This document shows, one piece after another, positions 8,234-23,869 of a stretch of DNA of 23,978 nucleotides (position 1 is its first letter; the number at the start of each line of letters is the position of its first letter). The DNA comes from a virus: positions 1-23,978 of the IMG/VR virus record IMGVR_UViG_3300022752_000392, one strand, 5' to 3'. Below the pieces are notes generated by a model that worked only from the letters and a program-made list of their open reading frames with translations, had not been told where the DNA came from and searched no databases. Both the position numbers and the translations under genes were made by a program.

Positions 8234-9262
8234 ATGGCTTTATTATCTAAACAAGGTTATGGGCAATTAGAACCTAATTTTCTAATTTCTCAGCGTACTG
8301 GCGAAGTTTTTGCACAACTGCCTTTTGTTTATACAGGTGTTACATTAATTAACTCAAATAGTTTTAATGCTATTGAGCAAGGTATGTTTTTGAAATATGA
8401 TTATGCAAACCAAAAAGTATCTCTTCCAAATACTGCGGGTGGAGATAAATTAACTTTCTTGGTTATGAACGAAATTCGTTTATTCGGACCTTTCTTAACA
8501 AACAAAGATTTTGCACTTTTCCCATCACCAACTGATGCAACTTCTTCATATGTATCTACTGGTATTATTCCTGGATTGGCACAAACTGCAAATCAAATCT
8601 TGAGCACTACAGGAAATGTTGTTATCAACATTAACTCTTCACCAACAGGATTTACGGCTGGTTCATATTTGCAAGCAACTATAACATTTAATGATGGTAG
8701 TGGAAATACTACTTATACATTTACAAATACTGGAACAACAACTACTATCTTTACATTAGGTACTGTTCATGGAACTTTCTATTTAACTGGAAGTCAAATT
8801 AATAGTGTTACATTTACAACTACTAGTGGAATAGCTCCTAATATCACTGATAAATCAATTTCTGGTATTACTTTTACTGGTCTTAATGGATTTTATTCAA
8901 GTGCTGCTGGTGCAACAGTTGTAACTGGATCTGCTTATATTAATACTGCAATTGCAGCAGCTAGTACATATACTTCAACTGCTGTAGGCAATGCTTATGG
9001 ACAGCAAGTAGTATATCCTCGTTTGTACAAACCAACTGTTGGAGATGTTATTACTACTAACTTACTTGAACTTAATGCTCAAACTGATATTGCTGTAGGA
9101 CAAACTTACTCGCCATTTGCTCTTGCTGGATCAACAAACCCTGCAGTATTAGGATTTACAGGAACAGGTGCGGCTAATACTCTTCTTTATAGAGTTGTTG
9201 CAGTATCCACAACTCCAGATTTACAAAAAGCTGCAAAATTGCAATGTATCCAAACCCCATAA
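8234..9262 (+). CDS. Putative head decoration / capsid structural protein with beta-rich insert
   Basis: 342 aa, with AAGGAGG ribosome binding site and ATG 8234. The N-terminal part to about residue 115 (LEPNFLISQRTGEVFAQLPF, GMFLKYDY, LTFLVMNEIRLFGPFL) and the C-terminal part from about 258 (VVYPRLYKPTVGDVITTNLL, then LYRVVAVSTTPDLQKAAKLQ) look like one compact structural protein. They are separated by about 140 residues rich in Thr, Ser, Gly and Asn, with alternating hydrophobics, typical of surface beta-sandwich domains. The place between scaffold and major capsid gene is where decoration or cement proteins are encoded in many phages. No enzyme motif is visible. The insert is probably exposed on the capsid and may bind host or gut surfaces; that part is inference. 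Confidence 0.6.
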   Translation: MALLSKQGYGQLEPNFLISQRTGEVFAQLPFVYTGVTLINSNSFNAIEQGMFLKYDYANQKVSLPNTAGGDKLTFLVMNEIRLFGPFLTNKDFALFPSPTDATSSYVSTGIIPGLAQTANQILSTTGNVVININSSPTGFTAGSYLQATITFNDGSGNTTYTFTNTGTTTTIFTLGTVHGTFYLTGSQINSVTFTTTSGIAPNITDKSISGITFTGLNGFYSSAAGATVVTGSAYINTAIAAASTYTSTAVGNAYGQQVVYPRLYKPTVGDVITTNLLELNAQTDIAVGQTYSPFALAGSTNPAVLGFTGTGAANTLLYRVVAVSTTPDLQKAAKLQCIQTP

Positions 9263-12555: not shown

Positions 12556-13917
12556 ATGAGCGATAATCCATTACAGATTTATAAACGAAGAGTTAATAAA
12601 CTTATTGGAAACTCATTAGCTCCAGAACCAGAATCACCTAAAAAATATAATATTCCCGCATTTGACTTATATCAAAGAAAAGCCTTACATGCTGGTATGA
12701 GTCCAGATCCAACAACAAAAGATATTATTTTACAACAACAATCTTTAAAGACTGCTCTTAATAATAGCTATGATTCAGAAAGAATTCGTTTAGTAGTTGA
12801 TCCTACTGGTGAAACTGATGATACGCAAGATTATTTAGCTATCATTCAAAATGCTACAACTACGTGGATGGGTAGTGAACATACAATAGCTTTAGACATT
12901 GATACAATTTCTGCAACAGTAGGCACAACAATAGATTGGTTGCGCACAGGATATAAGTATTTGATTATGTTTAAAGATTATGATACTAAGGGTTATTTTT
13001 CTGGTAACATTGAGCGCGCTAATTATTTGATGAAGTGGACAGATGATAAGGGAAATGTTTATAAACAATGGGCTGTAATTCAAGGACCAAAACAAGTTGA
13101 CACTGCATATGCCACAAATAGAGAAGCTGAAATTATTATGGATAAGGGCGATAATCAATTTCAAATGTATTTAGGAAAGACCGAAGCTTCGACATATCTG
13201 CGTAGATATAATAGAATTATATTGAAAGATCCTTCGATTTATCATACCCGCGCTTGGATTATAGATGTTGTCGATGATGTTACTAATAAAAATTTAGTAA
13301 AAATAAGTCTTTCAGAACATTATATTGATCAAATTACAGATGACTATATTGAAGGTATAGCCTATAACTATGGCGTAAGCTCTACTTTATCAAGTGGAGA
13401 CCAAGTTACTGCAACAGCACAGGATTATGTGGTTACAAAAATTAATCATGGTCTTGAGCAAGGACAACCTATTTATAACGCTACTTATGGTAATATTTAT
13501 GTTAATTATATTGATGCCGATACATTTAAAGTCTCTCGTGTTATTAATGCAACTTCAATTCAATTAACAAATAATTTTGCTATACAATCATTTGTTTATA
13601 CTATTTTAATTAATGACTATACAATAAATGGTTCTGATTTTATGAAGTTGGGACAAAATTATGAATATGATTTAAATATTAATACTATTAAAAATTCGCC
13701 TACAGCTACATCGTATTGGTATTTAGGTGGAACAAATAATCTATCTATTGGAAGTTCGTATGGTGGAAATGTGTTTGTTACTTTAATAGATAATGATAGA
13801 ATTAAATTAAAATTAGGTAGTGGTGCAACAGTAGGTAGTGGATTTACATTGGCTTACAATAATGGTTCAAATATTAACTTAACAAAAACAATAGAAGTAG
13901 TTTCGTTAATATCATAA
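12556..13917 (+). CDS. Head closure / neck protein with C-terminal beta domains
   Basis: 453 aa; GAGGTGA ribosome binding site at 12546-12552 overlapping the previous stop. Residues 1 to about 265 follow the layout of phage head-closure-like proteins: N-terminal IYKRRVNKLIGNSLAPEPES, LVVDPTGETDDTQDYLAIIQ, a strand pair around TTIDWLRTGYKYLIMFKDYD, GYFSGNIERANYLMKWTDDK and a closing ARAWIIDVVDD-type strand (TRAWIIDVVDDVTNKN). About 290-345 is a beta domain with YVVTKINHGLEQGQPIYNAT then DADTFKVSRV, the same HGL-x-x-GQ pattern as the inserts of the second tube protein. About 350-450 is another Ser/Asn/Gly-rich beta domain ending TKTIEVVSL. The first part would plug or join the connector; the C-terminal domains are probably exposed. 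The assignment is from pattern and order. Confidence 0.6.
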   Translation: MSDNPLQIYKRRVNKLIGNSLAPEPESPKKYNIPAFDLYQRKALHAGMSPDPTTKDIILQQQSLKTALNNSYDSERIRLVVDPTGETDDTQDYLAIIQNATTTWMGSEHTIALDIDTISATVGTTIDWLRTGYKYLIMFKDYDTKGYFSGNIERANYLMKWTDDKGNVYKQWAVIQGPKQVDTAYATNREAEIIMDKGDNQFQMYLGKTEASTYLRRYNRIILKDPSIYHTRAWIIDVVDDVTNKNLVKISLSEHYIDQITDDYIEGIAYNYGVSSTLSSGDQVTATAQDYVVTKINHGLEQGQPIYNATYGNIYVNYIDADTFKVSRVINATSIQLTNNFAIQSFVYTILINDYTINGSDFMKLGQNYEYDLNINTIKNSPTATSYWYLGGTNNLSIGSSYGGNVFVTLIDNDRIKLKLGSGATVGSGFTLAYNNGSNINLTKTIEVVSLIS

Positions 13918-15244: not shown

Positions 15245-15264
15245 ATTTTAGGAGGAAAACAAAA

Positions 15265-16182
15265 ATGAGATTTGGTGTTCGTGAAGTCACAGATATCGTA
15301 TTTCGTTCTATTGGTAACACATCTCTTGGTGGATTCATTTTTACTGATGGACAACCAGTTATCTTTATCGATTCTTCAAAAATGTCTACTTTAGAAACAA
15401 CTGTAGCAACAGTTTATGCTCAAGGTGGTCGCGGAAACCCAAGATTGTTAGCATGGGATGGAGACAAAACTGCAACTTTTAAATTTGAAGATGCTCTTGT
15501 TTCACCTTTAAGCCTTTCAGTTTTAAGTTCAGCAAGTTCGCAAACTGGAAATTTATCTAATTTAGTATTTCATATGAATGAAAGAGTATTTTTTAATACT
15601 AGTTCAGTTGGTCCAGTTATTTTAAATACTATTCCTGGCGCAGGTATTACGGTTAATAGTGATTATAGCTTTACAATTATTCCTTTAGATGCTACTGGTG
15701 ATATTCGTACAGGTATTTCTAACTATATTGTACAAAGTAGCATTTTAGCAACTTCAGCTCCTTATACTGCAGCAGCATCTACTGCTACAAATGCAGGTCA
15801 AATTACAATTACATTAGCAGCTGCATCTGGAGTTGCAACTTTTGGAAGTCAAGATAATGGAAATTATATTATTGATTATTATGTAGTAGATCCATCCAGT
15901 AAAGGTTCACAAATTCAAGTTGATCCACAAAAATTTGGTGGATATTATTATATTGAAGCAAATACACTTTTCCGTGGCCTAGATGGAAAAGATTATCCTG
16001 CTCAAATTACTTTGCCAAAAGTGAAGATTAAAACACAATTTACATTGACTATGAGCCCAACAGGAGATCCAACAACTTTTAGTTTTGAAGCTGATGCTCT
16101 TCCGGGTCGTACTCGTCAAAATAAAGGTACAGATGTTCTTTATGAGATTTTAATCGGTGGAACCTCAACAACTAATATTTAA
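15265..16182 (+). CDS. Major tail tube protein, short paralog
   Basis: 305 aa from ATG 15265, set by AGGAGG at 15250-15255; an upstream in-frame ATG at 15226 lies in the preceding gene and is rejected. Motifs shared with the next gene are MRFG(V/I)REVTDI at the start, TVYAQGGRGNPRLLAWDGDK at about 48-67, FGGYYYIEAN and the end with KIKTQFTLTMSPTGDPT and NKGTDVLYEIL. This beta-sandwich plan and the place between neck and tape-measure genes fit a tail tube subunit. Codons are biased as in the capsid gene (CGT, GGT, GTT, AAC), which suggests very high expression and makes it the likely main tube protein. A sheath is unlikely given the small size. Function is by order and pattern. Confidence 0.72.
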   Translation: MRFGVREVTDIVFRSIGNTSLGGFIFTDGQPVIFIDSSKMSTLETTVATVYAQGGRGNPRLLAWDGDKTATFKFEDALVSPLSLSVLSSASSQTGNLSNLVFHMNERVFFNTSSVGPVILNTIPGAGITVNSDYSFTIIPLDATGDIRTGISNYIVQSSILATSAPYTAAASTATNAGQITITLAAASGVATFGSQDNGNYIIDYYVVDPSSKGSQIQVDPQKFGGYYYIEANTLFRGLDGKDYPAQITLPKVKIKTQFTLTMSPTGDPTTFSFEADALPGRTRQNKGTDVLYEILIGGTSTTNI

Positions 16183-16201
16183 TAGATGGAGGTAAAGGAA
16201 A

Positions 16202-18121
16202 ATGAGATTTGGAATACGTGAAGTCACGGATATAACTTTCCGCTCCATTGGTAATACAAATTTAGCTGGATTTATTTATACTGATAAACAACCCGTAATG
16301 AATATAAATCGAGCAAAAATGAGCACCTTGGATACTACTGCCGCTACTGTTTATGCACAGGGCGGCCGTGGCAATCCACGCCTATTAGCTTGGGATGGAG
16401 ATAAAACCGCCACATTTAAATTTGATAATGCTTTAATAAGTCCTTATTCATTAGGAATATTAAGTGGAGCCGCAGTAGATACAAGTCAACAGCTAGCTTT
16501 TCATCAAAAAGATCGTTCTTATATAGCAACAAGCTCACAAAGTGAAGTATCTTTAAATACTATACCTGGATCATTATTAAATGTAAATTCTGATTATCCG
16601 TTTAATGTAACTAATTTGGATCCCACTTATGATGCAGTATCTGTACCTGCAAGATATACTACAATAAATCAAATAACTGCAGTTTATATTAGTTCTATTT
16701 CTAGTGGCGTTATTACAACTAGTGCTACACATAATTTACCTGCGGGCTTACCAATCGCTTTTGTTAGTACTGGAACTTTAACAGGTGCTAGTTTATTGAG
16801 CACTAGCGTTGGAGCTGAAGTATATTATGTAACACGAGATTCAAATTTAACTGCAACTACTTTTAAAATATCTTCAACATATACAAATGCCCTAGCGGGA
16901 AGTAGCAATGTTACACCAACTGCTTTTACAGGTACTGTATATGTTGTTCAAATGGGTGCCGCAGTAGATTCTGCAACAACAACCATCCTTTCTACCTTAA
17001 CTCCTCATAATTTAAGTGCAGGTCAAATTGTTCAAGTTAGAGGTACAAGTTTTGCTAGCATTACTACAAGTACTGATTATTATATTAGAACCGTTCCAAC
17101 CGCCAGAACATTTACACTTGCTTCTGATTCTGCATTAACAACTCCAATTACACTTACTGCTACTTCGGGAAACACTTCTGGAACATTAGTTTTTAATTCT
17201 CAGTTAGGAATTGGAGTTAGTGTTGGTGGAATTACTTATTTTAGAAGTACTACAGCAAACTTTAGAGTTGGAGATCAAATTGTTGCAACTACAACTACTA
17301 CAGGACTTATTGTCGGTCAGATTTATACTATGGATGCCATTGTTGTTGGTACTACAACATATTCATTTAGAGATCCAGCAGGAAATACTTTTCCATTTGT
17401 TGGTACAAATACAAACAATTTTGTTCAAGTTCTTTCTCCACTTCCTTTAGTTGCTGGGTCAACAAGTGCCAATGCGGGACAGCTTAAATTTGCATTTTCT
17501 AACATTATAGGAAATTTATCAAATACTACTTTATCGGTTACAACTAGCGGTACAACAGTATTTACTGGTTCTGTTGCACACGGCTTAACTACTGGCCAAA
17601 CTGCATATTTTAATACTGATTCTACTGCGGGAGTTACTCGCGGAATTCCATATTATGTAAATTATTCGGGTGTTACAAATGCATTTAATATTCGATTAAC
17701 TCCATCTGGTAGCAATATTTCATTGGGCACACAAGCAACTCCATTTAATGCATATTATGAAGCTCAAAGTATTCCTGGTACTAATAGTTGTATAGATTAT
17801 TATGTTGTAGATCCGAATGCTAATACTACCTCTTTTGCTGTTTCTCCTATTCAGTTTGGTGGATATTATTATATTGAAGCTAATACTATATTTAGAGGCT
17901 TAGATGGAAATGACTTTGCCGGGCAGATAACAATACCAAAAGGAAAAATTAAAACTCAATTTACTTTAACGATGAGTCCTACTGGTGATCCAACAGTAAC
18001 AAGCTTTGAAATTGAGGCTTTACCTGGCAGAACTTTGCAAAATAAAGGTACAGATGTTTTATACGAAATTTTAATTTCAGGTCAAACTTTAGATAGACCA
18101 GATTCAGATATTTCATTTTAA
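16202..18121 (+). CDS. Tail tube protein paralog with tandem beta-domain inserts
   Basis: 639 aa, GGAGG ribosome binding site and ATG 16202. The first 90 residues are, by my count, roughly three quarters identical to the short tube protein, and the last 110 (from CIDYYVVDP at about 530) are also very similar. The middle is expanded: relative to the short copy, extra sequence enters at about 150-417 and again at about 438-522, and holds about four related beta-rich units. Codons are less biased than in the short copy, so it is probably less abundant. The likely job is a decorated tube subunit whose domains project from the tail, as Ig-like domains do on lambda and SPP1 tube proteins. It could also form one specialised ring at a tail end. 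A terminator starts at its last base. Confidence 0.72.
   Translation: MRFGIREVTDITFRSIGNTNLAGFIYTDKQPVMNINRAKMSTLDTTAATVYAQGGRGNPRLLAWDGDKTATFKFDNALISPYSLGILSGAAVDTSQQLAFHQKDRSYIATSSQSEVSLNTIPGSLLNVNSDYPFNVTNLDPTYDAVSVPARYTTINQITAVYISSISSGVITTSATHNLPAGLPIAFVSTGTLTGASLLSTSVGAEVYYVTRDSNLTATTFKISSTYTNALAGSSNVTPTAFTGTVYVVQMGAAVDSATTTILSTLTPHNLSAGQIVQVRGTSFASITTSTDYYIRTVPTARTFTLASDSALTTPITLTATSGNTSGTLVFNSQLGIGVSVGGITYFRSTTANFRVGDQIVATTTTTGLIVGQIYTMDAIVVGTTTYSFRDPAGNTFPFVGTNTNNFVQVLSPLPLVAGSTSANAGQLKFAFSNIIGNLSNTTLSVTTSGTTVFTGSVAHGLTTGQTAYFNTDSTAGVTRGIPYYVNYSGVTNAFNIRLTPSGSNISLGTQATPFNAYYEAQSIPGTNSCIDYYVVDPNANTTSFAVSPIQFGGYYYIEANTIFRGLDGNDFAGQITIPKGKIKTQFTLTMSPTGDPTVTSFEIEALPGRTLQNKGTDVLYEILISGQTLDRPDSDISF
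16664..17749 (+). repeat. Four divergent beta-domain repeats in the long tube protein
   Basis: Protein-level repeats of about 60-90 residues, each with a pattern like T-x-H-(N/G)-L-x-x-G-Q, then YY(V/I), then a TF-(K/T)-(I/L)-x-S strand. Unit 1 is at residues about 157-245 (ATHNLPAGLPIAFV, YYVTRDSN, TTFKISS); unit 2 at about 255-330 (TPHNLSAGQIVQVRG, YYIRTVP, RTFTLASD); unit 3 at about 336-400, weaker (TANFRVGDQIVATT, TTYSFRDPAG); unit 4 at about 440-515 (VAHGLTTGQTAYFN, YYVNYSG, AFNIRLTPSG). DNA identity between units is low, so the duplications are old. Confidence 0.65.
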
Positions 18122-18153
18122 AAATTGGGGGAGAAATTTTCCCCAATTTTTTT
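18121..18153 (+). terminator. Rho-independent terminator after the tube genes
   Basis: AAAATTGGGG (18121-18130) and CCCCAATTTT (18141-18150) form a perfect 10-bp stem around GAGAAATTTT, with seven Ts at 18147-18153. The A-run in the left arm means it could also act on the other strand. It begins at the last base of the stop codon and is directly followed by a promoter. Confidence 0.93.
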
Positions 18154-18154
18154 A

Positions 18155-18183
18155 TTGACATTATTGCGATTTTATGATATAAT
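18155..18183 (+). promoter_or_regulatory. Consensus vegetative promoter for the tail chaperone gene
   Basis: TTGACA (18155-18160), 17-base spacer and TATAAT (18178-18183), a perfect match to sigma-A consensus. The predicted start is near 18190, so AAGGAG at 18191-18196 is almost the first part of the transcript. The stretch after the -10 (GAATAAAAGGAG) is identical to that of the promoter at 10469. Confidence 0.92.
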
Positions 18184-20134: not shown

Positions 20135-23100
20135 TTGGCTAGTAATAGTTATGAGGTTATAGTTAAATTTTTAACTGATTATTCTGATGTTGATAAAGCA
20201 AGTCAAAAAATAAAATTATTACAAAAAGAATTAAGTGCTGCCGAAATGGCCGCAACTAAAGATCCTGTAAGAATAGATGCTATAAAACAATTAATTTTTC
20301 AAACAGAAAAATATATAGCAGATACAGATAAATCAAAACATTCTCAACATCTATATTCTTTACAAACAAGAGATTTAATTAAAGATTATGAAAAATTAGG
20401 TATTGAAATTCAAAATATTGTTAGACAAGAAAATATTTTAACAAATAGTTTAGAAAATCAAACTCGTCAGATGGGTCGGCTTCGTGATGCTCAAGGACGT
20501 TTTGTTTCTAGTAGAACGGTAACTGAGGGCGGAGCAGCATCAGAAAAAATTCCTGGAACTCCTGGCAGACCTCCGCAAACTATTGGTGAAGAAGGACTTA
20601 GAACAGCTAGACATGCGGCTTTGGCAGCTCCAATTTATGGTGTAATTTATAGTGGAATGACAGCAATTCAACAATCTTTTCAAGATTATGTTGAGTTTGA
20701 TAAAGTATTAAATAGAATTGCAATTGTTTCTGGTGAATCGGCAGAATCAATGAAAGCTTTTGCGGAAGAGGCTCATAAGTCAGGTATGTCGCTTAGTGTA
20801 ACCGCAAAAGACTATGCAGAGGCAGCTTTAATATTTTATCAACAGGGTGGTTTGGCAATGGAAAATGCTGAATCATTAGCAAAAGCTTCAATTGAATTAT
20901 CTAATGTTTTAGGTATGAGTATGCAAGATTCTTCAAGTGCATTAACTGCTATTATGAATTCTTTTGATCTTTTAGCAAAAGAAGGCGATAAGGCAGGTGA
21001 GCATATTGCAGATGTTTTAACTAAACTAGATCAATCAACTGCAACATCGGGTGATAAAATTGCAGCTGGTTTAAGTCGATTTGCTTCAACTGCAAGTGAA
21101 GCTGGATTTACTTTTGAGAAAGCTGCTGCTATGTTTGCTACAGTTGCTTCTGTTACTCAATTAGCACCTGAAGTAGTGGGTACTGCATTTAAAACTTTAA
21201 TTACAAATTTACAAGAAGTTCAAAATAAAGGACCTCTTGCAGTTGAACAATATACCAATAAATTAAAGCAGGTTTCAGATAGATATAATTTAGGAATTAA
21301 ACCTTTTGATGAAAAGGGACAATTAGTAAATGCCTCAGATTTAATTGATCAAGTTGCTGCTGCTTATAATAGATTAACAGATAATACAGCTAAACAAGAA
21401 TTGGTTCAAGCAGTGGCTGGAAAGCATCAAATAAATATATTACAAGCTCTTTTAACAAATTATGATAAAATGGATCAAAGCATGAAAGACGGCTTAGCAT
21501 CTCAGGGTACTGCCGCAGAAGCACAGAAAAAATCAGCAGAAACTCTTGAGGCATCATTAACAAGATTGACTGAGGCCTGGAATCATTTTACCAAACAATT
21601 ATATGATAATAAAGCTTTACCATATATTATTGATGCATTAACATTTTTAATAACTAAATTAGGAGATTTTATTAGCGGTCCATTTGGATTTATGAAATTT
21701 CTTACTCTAGTTTTATTTGTTGCAGGTACCCTTAAAAAAGATTTGTTTTCTAGTATAATTACAAATGTTAAAACAATGTTAACAGGTCAAAGAGAATTAA
21801 ATGCTCTAAAAGAACAAGAAATTCAAATACAAAAAAGTATTGAAACTGCTGATGCCGCAACAAATGTAGTAGATAAACAAAGACTCGAAACTGAGCTTGC
21901 TATTGTTAAGGCAAAACAAGCTCAAATTTTACTTGCATCAGGTCAAGCTGAAGCGGCTGCCGTTTTAATGGGAACAGCTGCAACTGGTGAAAAAGCTGCG
22001 GGTGGTGCTGGTGTTCCTGGAGCAGTTGCTGCAGGCGCTGCTGCTGCAGGAGGCCTTGCTGGAATTAAAAAAGGTGCTTTAGGAGCGCTTAAAAAAGCTC
22101 CTGGTGCTCTTTGGAAAGGATTCAAAACCGGAGGAACAATGGCCGGTATATTTGGATTGATGGAATTAGTTGGTGGTGGAGATTTTTCTGGTAGTGCATT
22201 TGCAAGAGCTGGTATAAAAACGGGTCTTTCAGTAGCTGGTGGAATGTTGGGTAATTTAATTCCAATTCCTGGTGTTGGAATGGTTCTTGGAGGGATAGCG
22301 GGAGCACAAGCAGGAGAATATATAGCTAATAAATTTTTTCCTAAAGCTATTTCAGAACAAGCTGATGAGGCAACAAAAAGCGTAGAAGATTTTACACAAG
22401 GTATTCTTGATGAAGTAAATGCTCAACAAAAAGCTGTAGATTTAAATGAAGAAATGATAAAGGGTCTTAATCAATTACAGACTCAAGTTGATAAAATGAA
22501 TATTCCTTTTTTAACAGAAATGGAGCGAACATTAGAATCTAATAAAACCTATTTTGAATCATTTAAAAATTATCAAGATTCAACACTGGATAATGCTGAA
22601 AAAATTATAGAATTTAGTCAATTACAAAGAGAAATAAATGAAAATTTAACATCAACTACAAATTTAAACACAATGAAATCTTTACAAGATTTACAATATA
22701 AAATTGCTGAACAAGGAAAAAATGGTGCTATTGCTACAAAAAATCAACTTGATTACTATAAAGAGCAATTAGATATTTTAAAGAAAAAAGTTGATTTAGA
22801 AAAACAAAGTAATGCCGAAAATCGTCTTATTCTTGTGCGACAAGCTGGCGGTGGATTTACATATCAATTTAAAAGAGGTATATCAACCCAAGCTGGACCA
22901 AGTGCTGCTGAAACTCGTGCATCACAATTAAAAGCTGCAGAAGGATATTTTACAACATCTGCGGGTGCGGCGTATAGTGAAGCAGACAAATTAAAAGGAT
23001 ATTTAAGATCTACATTAAAAGGAAAAACAGAGCAACAAATTTCAGATATTATTCAAAGTGGCGTTATGGGAAAAGCCATACCTGGAAATATACGTTTAAC

Positions 23101-23869
23101 AGGACCAGAAACAGAAACAGTAAGAAACTCACTTGTCTTATTAAAAAAATATAGTGAAGATGCTAGAGAAGCTCTTGCAGATATTGGAAAATATGGAGGA
23201 GATACAGCCGGATATCAACAACAATTAAATATGATTGGTCAGGTCATGAGCACTATTGGTTTACAAACTGGTAATGTGCAAACATCTTTAAATAATCTAT
23301 CTTCTATTTTTGATTATAAAGTGGCAGGAACTCCTGCATATGCCTTAGCTCAAGGTATTCTTAAATTAGGTGGTTATATGTCAAGTCTTGGTGCTAAAGT
23401 AGAACCAACACAAATTCCAAAAGAAGTTTTGAGTGGACCTACTTATAAATCTGAAACTACAGAAGAACGAGTAAAAAGAATCGGTGGGGAAATAACAGCT
23501 GGCAATAGAACTCTTTTTGATGATATAATAGATGTTTTTAGATGGATAAAAAGCACTACTTCATTTGATTCTGGGGGCTATACTGGAAATAATCAAGGTA
23601 TGGCAATGCTCCATAGCAAAGAATTAGTTTTAAACAAAGATGATACTAAAAATATATTATCTGCGGTCAGTATGTTTAGAGGAATTCCAATGTCTGCAAA
23701 TATCCCAAATTTTAATCGTCAATCTGGCGGCGCGGGACAAAATGTAAATATTAATGCAAACTTTCCAAATGTTTCATCTGCGGATGAGATTAAGCGAGCT
23801 TTTGCATCTATGTCTAATGACGCACTTCAATTTAATTCACGAGTTAAAGTTGTAGGTGCGGGTGTATAA
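20135..23869 (+). CDS. Tape measure protein (TTG start)
   Basis: 1244 aa from TTG 20135 with AAAGGAG eight to nine bases upstream. It sets tail length, fills the tube and leaves it during infection. Residues 1-130 are helical. About 155-480 is the conserved phage tail tape-measure core (YGVIYSGMTAIQQSFQDYVE, RIAIVSGESAESMKAFAEEA, ALTAIMNSFDLLAKEGDKAG, VVGTAFKTLITNLQEVQ). A hydrophobic stretch at about 495-533 and a Gly/Ala-rich part at about 620-735, with GMLGNLIPIPGVGMVLGGIA, look membrane-active. Coiled coil is at about 745-900. The end has FDSGGYTGNNQGMAMLHSKE (about 1143-1162) followed by LVLNKDDTKNIL, a hallmark of Firmicutes tape measures. By the usual 1.5 angstrom per residue this gives a tail of roughly 190 nm. 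No lytic transglycosylase or peptidase domain is evident. Confidence 0.93.
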   Translation: MASNSYEVIVKFLTDYSDVDKASQKIKLLQKELSAAEMAATKDPVRIDAIKQLIFQTEKYIADTDKSKHSQHLYSLQTRDLIKDYEKLGIEIQNIVRQENILTNSLENQTRQMGRLRDAQGRFVSSRTVTEGGAASEKIPGTPGRPPQTIGEEGLRTARHAALAAPIYGVIYSGMTAIQQSFQDYVEFDKVLNRIAIVSGESAESMKAFAEEAHKSGMSLSVTAKDYAEAALIFYQQGGLAMENAESLAKASIELSNVLGMSMQDSSSALTAIMNSFDLLAKEGDKAGEHIADVLTKLDQSTATSGDKIAAGLSRFASTASEAGFTFEKAAAMFATVASVTQLAPEVVGTAFKTLITNLQEVQNKGPLAVEQYTNKLKQVSDRYNLGIKPFDEKGQLVNASDLIDQVAAAYNRLTDNTAKQELVQAVAGKHQINILQALLTNYDKMDQSMKDGLASQGTAAEAQKKSAETLEASLTRLTEAWNHFTKQLYDNKALPYIIDALTFLITKLGDFISGPFGFMKFLTLVLFVAGTLKKDLFSSIITNVKTMLTGQRELNALKEQEIQIQKSIETADAATNVVDKQRLETELAIVKAKQAQILLASGQAEAAAVLMGTAATGEKAAGGAGVPGAVAAGAAAAGGLAGIKKGALGALKKAPGALWKGFKTGGTMAGIFGLMELVGGGDFSGSAFARAGIKTGLSVAGGMLGNLIPIPGVGMVLGGIAGAQAGEYIANKFFPKAISEQADEATKSVEDFTQGILDEVNAQQKAVDLNEEMIKGLNQLQTQVDKMNIPFLTEMERTLESNKTYFESFKNYQDSTLDNAEKIIEFSQLQREINENLTSTTNLNTMKSLQDLQYKIAEQGKNGAIATKNQLDYYKEQLDILKKKVDLEKQSNAENRLILVRQAGGGFTYQFKRGISTQAGPSAAETRASQLKAAEGYFTTSAGAAYSEADKLKGYLRSTLKGKTEQQISDIIQSGVMGKAIPGNIRLTGPETETVRNSLVLLKKYSEDAREALADIGKYGGDTAGYQQQLNMIGQVMSTIGLQTGNVQTSLNNLSSIFDYKVAGTPAYALAQGILKLGGYMSSLGAKVEPTQIPKEVLSGPTYKSETTEERVKRIGGEITAGNRTLFDDIIDVFRWIKSTTSFDSGGYTGNNQGMAMLHSKELVLNKDDTKNILSAVSMFRGIPMSANIPNFNRQSGGAGQNVNINANFPNVSSADEIKRAFASMSNDALQFNSRVKVVGAGV

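Follow-up and report, generated by a model that had tools for sequence, protein, structure and literature searches.

Two tail-tube genes lie side by side in the DNA analysed here (the window), a 23,978-base viral record of IMG/VR taken at its full length, which is a piece of a large siphophage genome. One of them encodes a plain protein (TT1) and the next an enlarged paralogue (TT2), in which 381 residues stand between conserved ends that are separated by 53 residues in TT1. Within the tail-tube family this two-gene plain/enlarged pair, with an internal insert without predicted fold, is new. According to the most economical reading, which we consider fairly likely, the tube is a mixture in which TT2 makes up the scarcer, decorated subunits.

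The tail-tube pair and its surroundings

TT1 (305 aa) occupies positions 15265 to 16182 and TT2 (639 aa) positions 16202 to 18121, both on the + strand, with ATG start codons at 15265 and 16202, respectively, and a gap of 19 bases between the genes. The structural block of the window runs from a PhoH-like gene through terminase, portal, capsid-region and neck-region genes to TT1, TT2, two more genes and the tape measure gene, several of these names being assigned by position and reading. The tape measure protein, a usual neighbour downstream of a tube gene, is encoded at 20135–23869 (+) and matched phrog_34405 at E 1.5e-64, a family annotated as tail length tape measure protein; the same order, with the tube gene before the tape measure gene, is present in phages 949, PJN02, vB_BcoS-136, and Sundance. 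At the left end of the window (positions 1–1910, with the PhoH-like gene at 819–1910) the first two genes presented GC3 values of 0.41–0.44, vs. 0.11–0.26 elsewhere, and this end is therefore unlike the structural block in composition.

Each gene of the pair displays its own Shine-Dalgarno site, as read in the sequence: AGGAGG at 15250–15255 (+) for TT1 and GGAGGT at 16188–16193 (+), inside the intergenic gap, for TT2. Because of the latter, TT2 is a separate gene and not a frameshift product; a frameshift or readthrough joining TT1 and TT2 was ruled out, as the two are complete genes with separate starts. Directly 3' of TT2 there is a terminator-like hairpin with a T-run (18128–18144, +), followed by a consensus promoter (TTGACA-17-TATAAT, 12/12; 18155–18183, +) which serves the next gene block.

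The identity of TT1 and TT2 as tail-tube proteins is supported by PHROG, PDB profile, TT1 fold and position before the tape measure gene, which all concur. Both proteins matched phrog_2729 (E 4e-45 for TT1 and 1.6e-36 for TT2). A profile of TT1 and seven phage relatives matched an SPR-type tail tube protein in the PDB (E 3e-13), whereas a wider profile of TT1, TT2, and IMG/VR relatives, from which the group of phages 949, PJN02, and Sundance was left out, reached a PDB tail tube only at E 0.0012; the sequence link to the PDB tube therefore goes via that group. The TT1 model (pLDDT 71.5, built from 43 sequences) gave 18 PDB matches at E ≤ 0.001, all of them to tail-tube or tail/neck chains, and the top ones (from 3.4e-8) to tail tubes. 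In the AlphaFold2 model of TT2 the tube core alone was usable, and the best PDB match of this core was also a tail tube (E 1.2e-3, probability 1.00). The label "head and packaging" that PHROG gives to phrog_2729 was set aside because the fold and the PDB profile indicate a tail tube. A sequence-only reading of this DNA had proposed one plain and one enlarged tail-tube protein, and had named unrelated predicted folds as one outcome that would speak against it; phrog_2729, the PDB profile and the TT1 fold bear the proposal out, and for the tube core unrelated folds were not obtained.

In tail tubes, the loop between strands 2 and 3 makes inter-ring contacts (PMC8718954). Judged from the model, its counterpart in TT1 is the loop at residues 45–66, which is of low confidence and lies between strands 31–43 and 70–77. 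Over the inter-ring loop (residues 48–74), TT1 and TT2 are identical at 27 of 27 positions.

The insert of TT2

BLASTP aligned residues 1–146 of TT1 and TT2 with 65% identity (E 2e-60), and residues 200–299 of TT1 with residues 528–627 of TT2 with 74% identity (E 1e-48). This similarity is far above chance and agrees with the earlier description of two open reading frames, at the positions given above, that share both ends. TT2 is composed of an N-terminal tube half (residues 1–146, including the inter-ring loop; 16202–16639), an insert that replaces the 53 TT1 residues (residues 147–527; 16640–17782) and a C-terminal tube half (residues 528–639; 17783–18118), all of them on the + strand. The distance between two family-invariant residues was 430 in TT2, as compared to 100 in TT1 and 66–173 (median 81) in 41 relatives. 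Enlarged single-copy tube proteins exist in the family, since phage Phass-1 has one 538-residue tube protein with a long middle and some relatives are extended at the C-terminus instead.

The extra sequence had been thought to enter at two separate points, but the TT1 linker and the TT2 insert aligned at the level of shuffled sequences (local alignment score 42 vs. shuffled means of 39–41; p = 0.3–0.4). The second point, which depended on matching SANAGQ with TNAGQ, was dropped, as the best alignment path bypasses this anchor and the anchor is no better than chance. One replaced segment is the safer reading than two insertions.

In the models, the insert is located after a helix and the fourth long core strand, and before the strand that opens the C-terminal half. 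The loop after strand 4 protrudes outside the tube in SPP1 and 80alpha (PMC8718954), and in the tube protein of YSD1 strands 4 and 5 are separated by an Ig-like domain (PMC9022992). This correspondence supports the location of the extra sequence of TT2 at the site that holds outward-projecting sequence in the tubes of YSD1, SPP1, and 80alpha (PMC9022992, PMC8718954); by analogy, the loop carrying the insert probably faces outward.

The insert is rich in Thr and Ser (31% taken together) and contains few charged residues. About four beta-domains with a common H-(N/G)-L-x-x-G-Q pattern had been read in it. The shorter motif H-[NG]-L-x-x-G does occur three times, as HNLPAG at residue 177 (16730–16747), HNLSAG at residue 269 (17006–17023), and HGLTTG at residue 460 (17579–17596), but the seventh residue is L, Q, and Q, respectively, the GQ form being present in only two of them. 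These motifs lie in units 1 (16679–16951), 2 (16952–17215), and 4 (17510–17785) of the + strand, whose mutual similarity is weak. In shuffle tests, with p values uncorrected for several comparisons, the resemblance supports kinship between units 2 and 4 (p = 0.004); for units 1 and 2 the support is weak (p = 0.03), and the value for units 1 and 4 was 0.5. The proposed unit 3 (17216–17476, +) is without the motif and was unrecognisable as a copy (p 0.1–0.5 vs. the other units), and AlphaFold2 gave no usable model of the insert fold (block-mean pLDDT about 30–73, mostly under 60); the count of four beta-domains was not upheld.

No relatives of the insert were found among 50,697 phage records. 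Neither whole TT2 nor its units matched Pfam, and no Ig-like, Big or FN3 domain was recognisable; PDB profile matches to antibody chains appeared only at E ≥ 0.38, which is not credible, and unit 2 gave a marginal PHROG match (phrog_9998, E 0.003, function unknown). On these results, with no PDB match of weight, assignment of the insert to a known domain was rejected. With p about 0.04, the resemblance between the insert of a single-copy relative (L092) and units 3 and 4 was too slight for a module common to both inserts to be claimed.

Elsewhere in the window, a neck-region protein (12556–13917) carries HGLEQG at residue 298, within a C-terminal part (residues about 290–453) that weakly resembles insert units 1 (p = 0.02) and 4 (p = 0.007) and that looks different in the L092 homologue. 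The gene before the capsid gene (8234–9262) encodes a Thr-rich product of 342 aa, vs. 202 aa in L092, and enlargement by sequence of this kind may therefore extend to several virion proteins of this phage.

Divergence, codon use and rarity of the two copies

TT1 and TT2 came out as sisters, with support 100/100, in a 52-row maximum-likelihood tree, and the duplication therefore arose within the lineage of this phage. The two are each other's closest known relative and about 58% identical over the core. Their evolution was unequal: the branch of TT2 was about nine times longer than that of TT1 (1.14 vs. 0.13), and departures at 82 conserved columns amounted to 23 in TT2 vs. 14 in TT1. By its longer branch and more frequent departures, TT2 appears as the specialised copy. 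Over 244 shared codons dN was 0.30 and dS 1.53 (near saturation), with a ratio of about 0.19.

Codon bias was expressed as a z value, each protein being compared with itself written in average late-gene codons. TT1 reached +4.1, as compared to −0.8 for the whole of TT2 and −2.4 for its tube core. The values of +4.3 for the capsid protein and +4.1 for the product of the gene at 8234 are inflated, as these two made up the reference set. ATA was absent from the 25 Ile codons of TT1 and accounted for 15 of the 44 in TT2. In L092, the single tube gene ranked third in codon bias, just under the capsid and decoration-like genes. As had been anticipated from the sequence, codon usage favours the plain copy, the bias of TT1 being on a par with that of the capsid gene and the codons of TT2 being ordinary. 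This supports TT1 as the probable abundant copy, codon bias being a mere proxy for amount and both genes having good Shine-Dalgarno sites.

Scans of IMG/VR with TT1 or TT2 as single sequences found no relative; the IMG/VR relatives were reached by searching with alignments. In the phage collection, the 40 matching records had one tube locus each, and no tandem tube pair was found in a whole-record profile search of about 130 records. Tube genes were compared at 285 loci, which amount to about 203 distinct sequences in a sample that leans to close relatives of the queries, is not a census, and includes many fragmentary records. Of these loci, only that of the window had intact tandem copies, and the other double matches were single genes broken by an intron-like insert or a stop. 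The two-gene arrangement is known from one 24-kb record, as none of the other contigs searched shows it.

Two rumen phages (the records of L066 and L072) carry a second phrog_2729 tube homologue (L107, 3906–4685, and L108, 3633–4463, both −), on the opposite strand, some 62 kb away from the main one. Genes nearby resemble, by eye, those for a sigma factor, RNA ligase, and PNK. These second homologues are shorter than the main ones, with the middle loop trimmed, the C-terminus extended and one in-frame TAG each, and the tree indicated a separate origin for them. In L261 (5760–6618) and L263 about 0.8 kb of DNA, containing an HNH-like ORF, splits the tube gene after about codon 245; this interruption matched a group I intron just below the Rfam cut-off (45.5 bits, E 8e-10). 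In L126 (653–1564, on a Clostridium MAG contig) the first 65 or so codons of the tube gene are separated from the rest by about 0.9 kb, also with an HNH-like ORF, the group I intron matches being marginal (E 0.2–0.4). Two different tube genes (L135 and L142) stand about 200 kb apart on a 402-kb contig (IMGVR_UViG_3300032167_000002), which may combine the genomes of two phages or represent a single jumbo phage.

Role of the enlarged copy and comparison with known systems

In the reading that we prefer, a tandem duplication in the lineage of this phage gave rise to two tail-tube subunits. TT1 would have retained the ancestral job and be made in bulk, whereas TT2 would have kept the parts for tube-building and stacking while its loop region after strand 4 took up a large, Thr/Ser-rich insert, the structure of which is probably beta. 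TT2 would probably be made at a lower level and be built into the tube as a decorated minority, its inserts projecting from the tail and engaging the cell surface or the surroundings through contacts that are weak and multivalent. Projection and adhesion are argued from the insert site and from precedent, because the insert has neither a predicted fold nor a detectable relative. The unchanged inter-ring loop and the dN/dS of about 0.19 speak for a tube core that is kept in TT2, and the codon bias for unequal amounts; the 19-base gap, the separate Shine-Dalgarno sites and the terminator after TT2 also favour this reading.

The main rival, which we regard as unlikely, is that TT2 is confined to one special ring, or a few, at a set position in the tail (the ring that starts the tube at the tip, for example, or the one beneath the neck), with the insert contacting baseplate, collar or host. 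A low copy number would fit the lower codon bias of TT2, which also departs at more of the conserved tube positions than TT1 does, and the authors who described the adjacent tube-like gp179 and gp180 of phage G raised this option (PMC8570332). An inter-ring loop exactly as in TT1 is, however, what would be expected for free mixing, and single-copy relatives manage without such a ring protein.

It is less probable still that the pair represents a step of replacement or decay, in which TT2 would be redundant, its insert drifting and its task no different from that of TT1, or would swap for TT1 under some conditions. The 639-codon frame without a stop, the low dN/dS over the shared parts and the clean gene with its own Shine-Dalgarno site argue against this step, to which the fast branch of TT2, its lost codon bias and the finding of the pair on one contig only would conform.

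We consider very improbable a role of TT2 inside the cell and not in the virion, where it might, for example, act as a decoy against defence proteins that detect tube monomers, as DSR2 senses the SPR tube. The family is indeed the one sensed by DSR2 (PMC11087589) and two other phages hold a second tube homologue outside the tail genes, but TT2 belongs to the tail operon and gives no indication of being expressed early, its DSR2-bound loop is the same as that of TT1 (PMC11087589), DSR2 should be triggered and not blocked by a soluble monomer of the type that it senses, and the 381-residue insert would have no evident role. Equally improbable is an assembly artefact fusing two phage strains, for although the pair comes from a single record and no second contig, TT1 and TT2 are mutually closest and yet, at about 58% identity over the core, too distant to be variants from two strains, a proper Shine-Dalgarno site is present in the 19-base junction, and the gene order runs on.

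Under the mixed-tube reading, a gene pair would leave the decorated copy free to change fast while the tube-forming copy stays constrained, which agrees with the unequal branches of TT1 and TT2. Tail decorations are known mainly as C-terminal extensions or frameshift products. We put forward tentatively, as a possibility, that the window encodes a mixed tail made from two tandem genes, with amounts partly set by codons and without a frameshift, bearing an undescribed multi-domain decoration in an internal loop. The two genes offer a natural plain/decorated pair for testing the roles of tail decorations, which reviews call unclear (PMC9022992).

Several known systems share part of this arrangement. 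The gp17.1 and gp17.1* proteins of SPP1 occur at 3:1 and derive from one gene with a frameshift that adds one C-terminal FN3 domain (PMC8718954). SPP1 has, as we infer for the window phage, a plain subunit commoner than the decorated one; in contrast to it, TT1 and TT2 are two genes and the extra sequence of TT2 is internal. In lactococcal 936 phages, TpeX enlarges part of the tube subunits through a frameshift (about 470–530 aa) and binds host cells (PMC6669499). There too an enlarged subunit stands beside a plain one, but its C-terminal module is frameshifted and BppA-like, whereas TT2 is a second gene whose internal insert matches neither BppA nor any other family. The pair, read as a mixed tube, would work like those of SPP1 and TpeX, yet it is not a member of that type, since it consists of two genes instead of a frameshifted one and the C-terminal tube half follows the insert.

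The insert of TT2, which follows the fourth core strand of the model, appears to lie in the region where YSD1 has its beta domain, between core strands 4 and 5 (PMC9022992); YSD1 has one gene and one Ig-like domain per subunit, as compared to 381 residues, in the second copy only and with no Ig match, in the window phage. The tube-like gp179 and gp180 of phage G (242 and 189 residues, with a division of labour that is unknown; PMC8570332) are likewise adjacent in one phage, but they belong to a contractile tail and have no giant insert, unlike TT2 of this siphophage. Finally, the tube proteins of 949, PJN02, EF1, and Phass-1 belong to phrog_2729 as well, with the same gene order where the regions were read, and each of these phages has a single tube gene in the place where the window has two.
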